10,435 nt of DNA from Actinotalea sp. Lineage in GTDB: Bacteria; Actinomycetota; Actinomycetes; Actinomycetales; Cellulomonadaceae. A program made the position numbers and the translations under genes. Below, piece after piece: positions 1,794-3,563 of the stretch. The stretch covers positions 1-10,435 of the forward strand of contig JACIXM010000271.1 of assembly GCA_014360395.1 (NCBI GenBank). The letters are read 5' to 3'. Position 1 is the first letter of the stretch. Every line of letters starts with the position of its first letter. The notes under the pieces were generated by a model, which was not told where the DNA came from, did not search any database, and saw only the letters and a list, made by a program, of their open reading frames with translations.

Positions 1794-2857
1794 CGCCGGC
1801 GCACGCCGTCGGCGAGGTGCGGGTGGTGGGCCGCCACGACGTTCGGGTGGGCCCGCACCCGGCTCTTGAGCGCGTTGTAGCCGTACTCGTCGAGGATCTC
1901 GTCGTCGTCGGCGTCCCGGCTGACGCCGGGGGCCCGGGCCGCCAGCTCCGCCGGCAGCGTGAGGCGCGGGAAGACGGCGTCGAGCGAGGGGTTGTGGAAG
2001 TAGGGCACCGAGACGCGGTCCGTGCCCGGCTCGGGCGCCAGCACGCGGTGCCGGGTGGCCTTCAGGTAGCCGTCCGTGGCCCACTCGAGCATCTCGCCGA
2101 TGTTGACGATCAGGGCGCCCTCCAGAGGCGGCGCGTCGAGCGCCTCGCCCTGGTACTCCACCTGCAGGCCGCGCCGGCCCGGCTCGACGAGCAGGAGCGT
2201 CAGCACGCCGAAGTCGTTGTGCCAGCCCACGCCCTGCTCCGTGCCGCCGGCGACCCGGCCCGGGTAGCGCACCACCTTGGCCAGCCACGCCGGTGCGTCG
2301 CCGAACGCCGCGTCGAACACGTCCGGGGCCTGCCCCAGGGACAGCGCCCACTCCCGCAGGAGGCGGTCGGCGACCGTCCCCATGAGGGTCGTCCACTCGT
2401 CGACGACCTCCCGCAGCGCGGGCAGCTCCGCCGGCCAGAGGTTCGGCCCCTGCAGCACGTGGTGGGCGGGGTCGTCCGGGCCGGTGGGCAGCACCGGCCG
2501 CTCGGGGCCGACGTCGATCTGCTCGCGCCAGTCGACCTTGCCCTGGGTGCGCTCGCCGCCGACCCGGGTGTAGCCGCGGAAGTGCGGGCTGCGCGTGTTC
2601 TCGATGGCGAGCTTCGCCGCCTCGGGCAGCGCGAAGAACTCGCGGGCGGTCCCGATCAGCCGCTCGACGAGGGCGTCGTCGGCGCCGTGGCCGACGAGGT
2701 AGAAGAAGCCGTGCCCGTGGGTGGCCTCACGCAGGGCGGTCCGGAACGTCTCGGCGGTCGCCGGGTCGTCGGCGTGGCGCAGGTCCAGGACCGGCAGGGC
2801 GGGGGCCCCACCCGAGGTCTGGGTGGTGGGGGCGGGCAGCACGGAGTGCAGGGTCAT
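1790..2857 (-). CDS. Isopenicillin N synthase family non-haem Fe(II) oxygenase
   Basis: The product has 355 residues. A DIOX_N-type domain begins at LPVLDLRHAD (21-30) and HGFFYLVGHG (49-58). The double-stranded beta-helix core carries the iron ligands H213-x-D215 (GWHNDFGVLTLLL) and H270 (ATRHRVL). The R281-x-S283 motif (RVSVPYF) normally binds the carboxylate of 2-oxoglutarate, or of ACV in true isopenicillin N synthase. These positions almost coincide with those of fungal IPNS. Nothing nearby suggests beta-lactam synthesis, so the substrate is unknown and most family members are 2-oxoglutarate dioxygenases. ATG 2857 is preceded by AGAAGGA with 8-nt spacing. A leader peptide gene ends 48 nt upstream on the same strand, so expression is likely controlled by cysteine or sulfur supply. 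The gene converges on the GpmA-like gene with a shared hairpin. Family is sure; function is not. Confidence 0.9.
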   Translation of the reverse strand: MTLHSVLPAPTTQTSGGAPALPVLDLRHADDPATAETFRTALREATHGHGFFYLVGHGADDALVERLIGTAREFFALPEAAKLAIENTRSPHFRGYTRVGGERTQGKVDWREQIDVGPERPVLPTGPDDPAHHVLQGPNLWPAELPALREVVDEWTTLMGTVADRLLREWALSLGQAPDVFDAAFGDAPAWLAKVVRYPGRVAGGTEQGVGWHNDFGVLTLLLVEPGRRGLQVEYQGEALDAPPLEGALIVNIGEMLEWATDGYLKATRHRVLAPEPGTDRVSVPYFHNPSLDAVFPRLTLPAELAARAPGVSRDADDDEILDEYGYNALKSRVRAHPNVVAAHHPHLADGVRRR

Positions 2858-2865
2858 GTCAGGAG

Positions 2866-2872
2866 TCCTTCT
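2866..2872 (-). promoter_or_regulatory. Ribosome binding site of the oxygenase gene
   Basis: AGAAGGA on the minus strand, 8 nt before ATG 2857. Unlike most genes here, this one has a classical RBS. This fits translation from a longer mRNA that begins at the leader peptide. Confidence 0.7.
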
Positions 2873-2965
2873 GGTGCGGTGGGACGAGCTGGGTGTCGGC
2901 GAGGGTCAGGCTCGACACAGACAGCTGTCGGTCCGCAGCAGGTCCACGTGGACGCGGCGCACCAG
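2871..2965 (-). promoter_or_regulatory. Candidate attenuator fold between leader peptide and oxygenase
   Basis: In the leader mRNA, CTGGTGCG (2965-2958, codons 5-7 of the leader) is perfectly complementary to CGCACCAG (2878-2871), which abuts the oxygenase RBS. A second helix, GTGTCG (2918-2913, over the last Cys and the Arg codon) with CGACAC (2898-2893), could form when no ribosome sits at the leader end. The two helices suggest a ribosome-position-dependent switch. Pairings of this length can occur by chance, so the fold is a hypothesis. Confidence 0.3.
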
Positions 2966-2977
2966 GACCAGGGACAT
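2906..2977 (-). CDS. Sulfur/cysteine-responsive leader peptide (HVDL...CR type)
   Basis: This is a 23-codon ORF, MSLVLVRRVHVDLLRTDSCLCRA. It matches the pattern R-x-HVDL-x-R-x-x-S-x-x-CR of small peptides annotated as putative leader peptides in Streptomyces and other actinobacteria, often ahead of sulfur-assimilation genes. Two Cys codons (TGT at 2923-2921 and 2917-2915) fall just before the stop, where a ribosome short of Cys-tRNA would stall. ATG 2977 follows TACCCT by 7 nt, predicting a leaderless mRNA, so translation would begin at the first base. The stop lies 48 nt before the oxygenase start on the same strand. The role is most likely in cis, as a translation-coupled attenuator. The motif match and placement are seen directly; the signal (cysteine) is known for related mycobacterial Cys-rich uORFs and inferred here. 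Confidence 0.82.
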   Translation of the reverse strand: MSLVLVRRVHVDLLRTDSCLCRA

Positions 2978-2984
2978 GCCACGC

Positions 2985-2990
2985 AGGGTA
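2985..2990 (-). promoter_or_regulatory. -10 element of leaderless promoter for leader peptide and oxygenase
   Basis: TACCCT on the minus strand, then GCGTGGC (7 nt) and ATG 2977. This promoter probably drives the leader-oxygenase transcript. It diverges from the promoter of the OsmC gene about 60 bp away. Confidence 0.6.
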
Positions 2991-3050
2991 GCCCGGTGCC
3001 CGCCGCAGGGCGAGGGGCGTCTCACCGTCGTGGGACGAGCGGCCGTCTGG

Positions 3051-3056
3051 CAGCAT
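3051..3056 (+). promoter_or_regulatory. Weak -10 element of probable leaderless promoter for the OsmC gene
   Basis: CAGCAT keeps the key A at position 2 and T at position 6. It is followed by CGGGCC (6 nt) and ATG 3063, the same spacing as other genes in the window. There is no RBS directly before the ATG. Confidence 0.42.
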
Positions 3057-3062
3057 CGGGCC

Positions 3063-3563
3063 ATGACGACGACGCCCGACGACGCGACCCCGACGACGAC
3101 CGCTGCGCCGGACGACGGGACGCCGCCGGCCGGTGCCCCGTCGGGCCACCGCGGCGTGGACATCGAGCGCACCGGGCCCGGCACCTACCTGGCGCGCAAC
3201 GTCCGCGGCGGCGAGCTGCGCATCAGCGCCGCCGGCGACGCCGACTTCACACCGGTGGAGCTGCTCCTCGCGGCGATCGGCGCGTGCTCGGCGGTCGACG
3301 TGGACACGGTGACCGCCCGCCGGGCCGAGCCGGACGCCTTCACGGTGCGGGTGGAGGGGGAGAAGGTCCGGGTCGACGGCGCGAACGCGATGCGCGACCT
3401 CGTGGTCACCTTCGACGTCCGGTTCCCCGCGGGGGCCGACGGTGATGCCGCGCGCGAGGTGCTCCCGCGCGCGGTGCAGGTCTCCCACGACCGGTCGTGC
3501 ACCGTCTCGCGCACGGTCGAGGCGGGGACCCCGGTGGCGATCCGGCTGGCCGGTCCGGCCTGA
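3063..3563 (+). CDS. OsmC/Ohr family protein (thiol-dependent peroxide detoxification type)
   Basis: The product has 166 residues. After a Thr/Pro/Asp-rich, probably disordered tail (1-30), the OsmC fold runs from about 32 to 164. FTPVELLLAAIGACSAVDV places the first conserved cysteine at C75, and VSHDRSCTVSRTV the second at C146. In OsmC and Ohr this pair reduces organic hydroperoxides in the cytoplasm. The short form and the spacing resemble the YhfA-like branch, whose substrates are poorly known. ATG 3063 is preferred because it follows a -10-like box by 6 nt and the open frame upstream lacks family similarity. A downstream start near residue 28-32 would remove the tail, but no good initiation codon is evident there. 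The gene diverges from the leader peptide-oxygenase unit, and its stop is 3 bp from that of the convergent transporter. Family assignment is firm; physiological substrate is not. Confidence 0.88.
   Translation: MTTTPDDATPTTTAAPDDGTPPAGAPSGHRGVDIERTGPGTYLARNVRGGELRISAAGDADFTPVELLLAAIGACSAVDVDTVTARRAEPDAFTVRVEGEKVRVDGANAMRDLVVTFDVRFPAGADGDAAREVLPRAVQVSHDRSCTVSRTVEAGTPVAIRLAGPA

Follow-up and report, generated by a model that had tools for sequence, protein, structure and literature searches.

A putative cysteine-sensing leader peptide ahead of a sulfur-poor isopenicillin N synthase-type oxygenase in Actinotalea sp. and other actinobacteria

In a 10,435-base stretch of Actinotalea sp. DNA (the window), taken from a draft genome of 545 contigs, a short leader ORF on the minus strand precedes the gene of an isopenicillin N synthase (IPNS)-type oxygenase. 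The leader is a member of a known attenuator kind, that of NCBIfam NF042934, and its response to cysteine is predicted. On the reading that we consider probable, the 23-codon ORF would be translated from a leaderless start and act as a cysteine-sensing attenuator: with charged Cys-tRNA plentiful, ribosomes would pass through the leader and the oxygenase would stay at a low level, and with cysteine short a ribosome would pause at the Cys codons, chiefly at a near-invariant UGU, and the pause would allow the oxygenase to be translated (or its gene to be transcribed on). The oxygenase, a sulfur-poor 2-oxoglutarate enzyme, would then most likely oxidise an organic sulfur compound, the sulfur of which would feed cysteine synthesis. 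The stall, its direction, the step that couples it to the oxygenase and the substrate of the enzyme are what we infer. A large actinobacterial enzyme family, named by its fold alone ('isopenicillin N synthase family'), would thereby gain a likely role in sulfur metabolism, and cysteine leaders could be used for assigning function to orphan genes.

Anatomy of the leader and its site

The initial annotation had placed a 23-codon Cys-containing ORF with a leaderless arrangement of -10 box and ATG 48 nt ahead of the oxygenase gene, and a reading of the minus strand from 3080 to 2840 confirmed this (Table 1). It had also put two Cys codons directly before the stop; both codons are indeed TGT and lie near the end of the leader, but Arg and Ala codons intervene before the stop. 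Among the 7 pattern matches in the draft genome, the window leader is the sole short Cys ORF. Within the window, nothing reached the gathering scores of Rfam.

Table 1 Features of the leader-oxygenase site in the window
Feature	Position	Strand	Basis or remark
-10 box TACCCT	2990-2985	minus	7 nt ahead of leader ATG, leaderless-type spacing
Leader ORF MSLVLVRRVHVDLLRTDSCLCRA	2977-2906	minus	23 codons + TGA (stop 2908-2906)
Cys codon 19, second Cys, TGT	2923-2921	minus	sequence reading
Cys codon 21, the motif Cys (D+9), TGT	2917-2915	minus	proposed sensor codon
48-nt spacer with AAGGA ribosome-binding site at 2870-2866	2905-2858	minus	sequence reading
IPNS-type Fe(II)/2-oxoglutarate oxygenase, 355 aa, ATG at 2857	2857-1790	minus	Pfam PF14226 + PF03171
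Divergent OsmC-family gene	3063-3563	plus	starts 72 nt from leader -10 box

The leader family and the genes behind its members

NF042934, which carries the description "putative leader peptide", gave the window leader a score of 25.2 bits (E = 8.9e-6). The window peptide and the model share their length, the motif R-x-HVD-L-x-R-x-x-S-x-x-C and a site ahead of mostly sulfur-metabolism genes; they differ in that the window peptide scores under the 27-bit cut-off and that no target gene is given in the description of the model. Five of ten leaders run against the model passed this cut-off (four oxygenase-linked and one of the SDF type), as did two of six further ones. The NCBIfam models Ms4527A and Ms5788A matched the leaders tested at scores below their own cut-offs, and NF042936 (the Ms4527A family) was the best match, again below its cut-off, for four leaders tested from f22, a distant Streptomyces-like family. 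The divergent leaders of L008 and of L166/G200 gave no match to any NCBIfam model. At E<=0.01, 116 of 148 class genomes have an NF042934 match and none of 14 controls does; at E<=0.001, so do 50 of 198 order genomes.

The genes behind 30 NF042934 loci were then listed, the downstream ORF being chosen by a script, and 27 of the loci could be parsed. Behind these 27 leaders stood 11 rhodanese, 9 DUF4395 and 2 luciferase-type genes, together with single cases of a sulfatase, a sulfite reductase, CbiX and solute-binding proteins. Sixty further leaders were picked by hand among the matches listed, and these preceded genes for sulfite reductase (9), PALP (8), cysteine dioxygenase (8), rhodanese (6), PAPS reductase (4), luciferase-type proteins (4), ROK/MarR-type proteins (4), SDF symporters (3), DUF4395 (3), TauD (1) and others, the four ROK/MarR-type genes being not plainly sulfur-related. 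That peptides of this pattern occur ahead of sulfur genes in actinobacteria, as had been claimed at the outset, is borne out by the NF042934 relatives ahead of sulfite reductase, rhodanese and PAPS reductase genes.

Polycysteine leaderless ORFs of M. smegmatis are reportedly the subject of Canestrari et al. 2020 (doi 10.1111/mmi.14498), which lay outside the literature search. Within the literature covered by that search, no described pairing of this leader type with an IPNS-family oxygenase was found, in line with the initial annotation, and the parts of the sources that were covered contained no UGU rule for cysteine leader peptides. As presented in excerpts of PMC9031893 and PMC13236596, the Cys-rich leaderless ORFs of M. 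smegmatis provide a precedent for the mechanism. Going by these excerpts and those of PMC9094748, they resemble the window leader in their leaderless start, their Cys codons and the sulfur genes downstream of them, but they have a run of Cys codons, whereas the window leader has two separated Cys codons and a 2-oxoglutarate oxygenase as its target.

Conservation of the leader ahead of the oxygenase

A scan of contigs kept 80 orthologue loci from 151 encoding a relative of the oxygenase. Fourteen of the 80 were at least 71% identical in the best segment and came from Cellulomonadaceae, Ornithinimicrobium, Brachybacterium and an Actinomycetales bin (L015, which lacks upstream DNA). The leader was present in 11 of the 13 close orthologues with upstream DNA (L010 and L011 are the two without it) and absent from all 66 more distant loci, which are 55-62% identical and of Microbacteriaceae type, named either as Microbacteriaceae or after genera of that family. 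Both strands of the 80 loci (540,601 bases) were also scanned for ORFs of 15-45 codons that carry the motif R..VD-x8-C and have a TANNNT box spaced as in a leaderless start. Eleven ORFs matched; each lies within the 300 nt preceding the oxygenase, and the rest of the scanned DNA has none.

A uniform rule applied to 131 homologue loci (the window included; 129 with upstream DNA, L015 and L124 having none) yielded 23 oxygenase-linked leaders. Every one of the 23 has its TANNNT box starting 12 or 13 nt ahead of the start codon, the presence of a box having itself been part of the rule, and the leaderless start is predicted. No leader was found in 106 of the 129 loci with upstream DNA, two of which (L046 and L054) have a motif-like ORF that lacks the -10 box. 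In the family sample, the oxygenase occurred in 4 of 41 genomes (E<=1e-20), with the leader in that of the window (G000) and in G033, without it in G031 and cut off at the start in G026. The order sample had the oxygenase in 28 of 248 genomes (E<=1e-100) and the leader in three of these 28, namely the window, G070 and, in a divergent form, G200. Of 246 genomes in the class sample, 35 had the oxygenase (E<=1e-60), 30 of these with loci, and 9 of 21 new loci carried the leader. All nine lie in f22, where they make up 9 of 10 loci; the leader was absent from 9 of 9 loci of another family, f7, and from L203 and L212.

Since the leader is missing from 66 of 66 Microbacteriaceae-type loci and 9 of 9 f7 loci, its pairing with the oxygenase is clade-wise and not universal, and a universal pairing is ruled out by its absence from the Microbacteriaceae, f7, f44, f51 and f2 loci examined. 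The initial expectation that the peptide is conserved ahead of orthologues thus holds in several families (11 of 13 close orthologues, 9 of 10 f22 loci) and fails in the Microbacteriaceae-type and f7 loci. Absence of the leader system as a whole does not account for the missing leader in f51, nor in the several f7 genomes that have NF042934 matches elsewhere; for f5 and f2, which are outside the 50 matching order genomes, it is possible that the system itself is absent. When presence of the leader is mapped on a tree of 78 of the 131 oxygenases, it takes 6 changes, no fewer than 5 of them forced, where shuffles take 20.1. The carriers are G200 and two clades distant from each other, in which 13 of 15 rows and 9 of 10 rows have the leader; it may have been gained twice or lost often.

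A near-invariant UGU codon in the leader

Codons were counted by position from the aspartate of the motif in 95 general and 23 oxygenase-linked leaders, after three of the 30 loci had been dropped as unparsed. The Cys codon at +9 was TGT in 118 of 118 leaders of this first set. Twenty extra loci (L295-L314), of which 17 were parsed and one repeats an earlier site, gave 15 TGT and two TGC, so that, overall, 132 of 134 distinct leaders encode the motif Cys (D+9) by TGT; the two exceptions rule out strict invariance. The search for leaders ran on the peptide, and the TGT codon was therefore not selected for. Other Cys positions of the 95 general leaders were mostly TGC (+2, 39 TGC versus 4 TGT; +7, 32 TGC versus 6 TGT). 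In the 23 oxygenase leaders, the +7 Cys was TGT in 6 of 7 cases and TGT made up 30 of all 36 Cys codons, versus 50 of 328 in neighbouring genes. We take UGU as the sensor codon of the leader. UGU is decoded by wobble and hence slowly. Excerpts of PMC9094748 state that such ORFs have a lower G/C skew because of their Cys codons.

Possible control at the RNA level

No terminator-like site was found in a search for an intrinsic terminator within 2700-3200 of the window; together with the short spacer, this favours control of translation. The published attenuator model is said to include an RNA fold in which the ribosome-binding site of the downstream gene is concealed. For the leaders studied here, the statistics did not support masking of that site by the leader's 5' part. 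The energies of leader-to-site duplexes were -14.9 for native pairs versus -14.4 for pairs swapped between clades, the native pairing beat just 26% of windows in its own gene body, and the site was no less accessible than in shuffles (mean z +0.14). Taken whole, the leader RNAs exceeded shuffles in stability (mean z -2.0). A common fold of six Cellulomonadaceae sequences pairs the 5' end of the leader with the site; its covariation term is unfavourable (+0.67), though 5 of 33 pairs are changed on both sides.

Family and structure of the oxygenase

The window oxygenase matches the Pfam families DIOX_N (PF14226) and 2OG-FeII_Oxy (PF03171) and not PF02668. Five residues, H213, D215, H270, R281 and S283, are invariant across 31 oxygenase sequences; we take H213/D215/H270 to be the HxD...H iron triad and R281/S283 to be the RxS 2-oxoglutarate motif. 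Isopenicillin N synthase proper closes the rings of the ACV tripeptide without 2-oxoglutarate, and the presence of the RxS motif argues against this enzyme. Solved IPNS structures were distant matches. The nearest structures by sequence and fold were a P. aeruginosa 'isopenicillin N synthase' (6jyv) and the ancestral ethylene-forming enzyme Anc357 (9ovh), at 33-38% identity, both from enzymes whose chemistry is different or not known. Their aligned parts each hold 2 Cys (counted by eye), versus 0 in the window oxygenase. The 6jyv protein is presumably PA4191. A supposed role of PA4191 as a sulfate-starvation gene was set aside, as the name is absent from PMC12581299 and the gene listing gives no sulfur role.

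TauD-type dioxygenases and the window enzyme are alike as Fe(II)/2-oxoglutarate oxygenases but differ in family, the former belonging to PF02668 and the latter to the IPNS/ACC-oxidase type with PF14226 and PF03171. Some TauD-type dioxygenases are made for sulfur supply, and one of the 60 NF042934 leaders hand-picked from the matches listed precedes a TauD-family gene.

Gene neighbours and sulfur content of the oxygenase family

Sulfur genes surround some orthologues of the oxygenase. In a Brachybacterium locus (L008), leader, oxygenase, a CBS-type gene and a CGS/CGL-type gene stand in a row; CBS-type and CGS/CGL-type genes are also in a row with the oxygenase in L011 and L031, and seven Cryobacterium loci have cysK, cysE and the oxygenase. 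Such cysteine-synthesis neighbours occur in just 10 of 131 loci. In G031, from the same family as the window (L335, 3-6482), the oxygenase is accompanied by a flavin reductase, an SsuA-type binding protein, a permease, an ATPase and two FMN monooxygenases. Sulfur gene contexts thus also occur around some leader-free orthologues. Two side observations concern these loci. The Ssu-like cluster of G031 is very sulfur-poor, and the CGS/CGL-type gene of L008 (5438-6576) appears as two overlapping tblastn pieces, perhaps from a sequencing frameshift or a real one.

The window oxygenase (355 aa) contains 0 Cys and 3 Met. We compared matched stretches of 130 oxygenases, one fragment having been dropped, with 224 neighbouring ORFs of 250-500 aa and strong coding signal. 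Mean Cys+Met was 0.60% in the oxygenases versus 2.33% in the neighbouring ORFs (p = 7e-43, a value that overstates the case because the orthologues are related), and 117 of the 130 oxygenases were free of Cys versus 30% of the neighbouring ORFs. Three paralogue frames had 1.0-4.0% Cys+Met. Leader-bearing and leader-free oxygenases did not differ (0.66% versus 0.60%, p = 0.13), and low sulfur is therefore a trait of the whole oxygenase family. Sulfur-acquisition enzymes tend to contain little Cys and Met. In a Gordonia, according to excerpts of PMC7661421, induced oxygenases have 0.88-1.33% Cys+Met versus 3.01% in the proteome.

The oxygenase is tied to sulfur by the targets of this leader type elsewhere, by the gene contexts of its orthologues and by its Cys- and Met-poor composition. 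The orthologue contexts point to a sulfur role, and the enzyme is probably an undescribed sulfur-scavenging one.

Alternative explanations

The same contexts could be read in another way, in which the leader senses cysteine and the oxygenase trims, protects or redirects a metabolite of the cysteine pathway (e.g. the 2-oxobutyrate by-product of transsulfuration, or a thiol) with no release of sulfur. The rows with CBS-type and CGS/CGL-type genes or with cysK and cysE fit an enzyme of cysteine metabolism equally well, a relative from Cellulomonas carbonis (P0012) bears the source name '2-oxobutyrate oxidase', and cysteine dioxygenase genes have such leaders too (8 of 60). We nevertheless regard this as the rather unlikely option, for the Ssu-like cluster of G031 and the low Cys and Met content of the whole family fit scavenging better. 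Cysteine dioxygenase degrades cysteine, and its eight leaders are a misfit with a simple 'on when cysteine is short' rule and a caution as to the proposed direction of control.

It is quite improbable that the short ORF is a conserved RNA or promoter element and not a translated cysteine sensor. A constraint at the nucleotide level would account for TGT in 132 of 134 leaders and for leader RNAs that are more stable than shuffles, but the peptide motif is kept between clades though its codons change, the 95 leaders not linked to an oxygenase mostly use TGC for Cys at +2 and +7, and covariation lends such an element no support. Least probable by far, to the point of being nearly negligible, is a relic, a known type of leader standing by chance before an unrelated gene. 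In favour of a relic, no leader was found in 106 of the 129 loci, but the leader is kept at its site in two distant clades, no such ORF was found elsewhere in the 540,601 bases scanned, and some leader-free orthologues also have sulfur contexts.

The attenuator reading, in which the leader senses cysteine and the oxygenase supplies sulfur, can be extended, more tentatively, to a general proposal. An undescribed desulfurising IPNS-type oxygenase may belong to an actinobacterial cysteine-starvation programme, which it would join either through a Cys leader or through insertion into a cysteine or organosulfur operon, and the leader family may sense cysteine codon-specifically, via one fixed UGU codon. 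We hold this broader proposal to be possible but somewhat doubtful.

Further leaders and possible leaders

Eight leaders of the form VRLWRRVHMDL(V/L)RYAGCVCRPS (L257, L258 and L261-L266) precede cysteine dioxygenase genes in 8 of 8 cases, and a gene for cysteine breakdown under a cysteine leader was unexpected. In the window's own family there is a second leader type, RR[DVA]VD[LY]RRVASALC (one reads RLHVDLRRQASSSC), ahead of a symporter of the DctA/GltP kind in the eight cases followed (L125-L132). Two of the eight symporters matched NCBIfam models at scores below the cut-offs, and the other six are 66-71% identical to the first. The symporter may carry cystine or another sulfur compound. Two weak matches were also seen; one (L099) falls within a long frame, and the other (L100) reads ARRRHVDSQRQASTGC, with an HVD-x8-C stretch, and is possibly a further leader.
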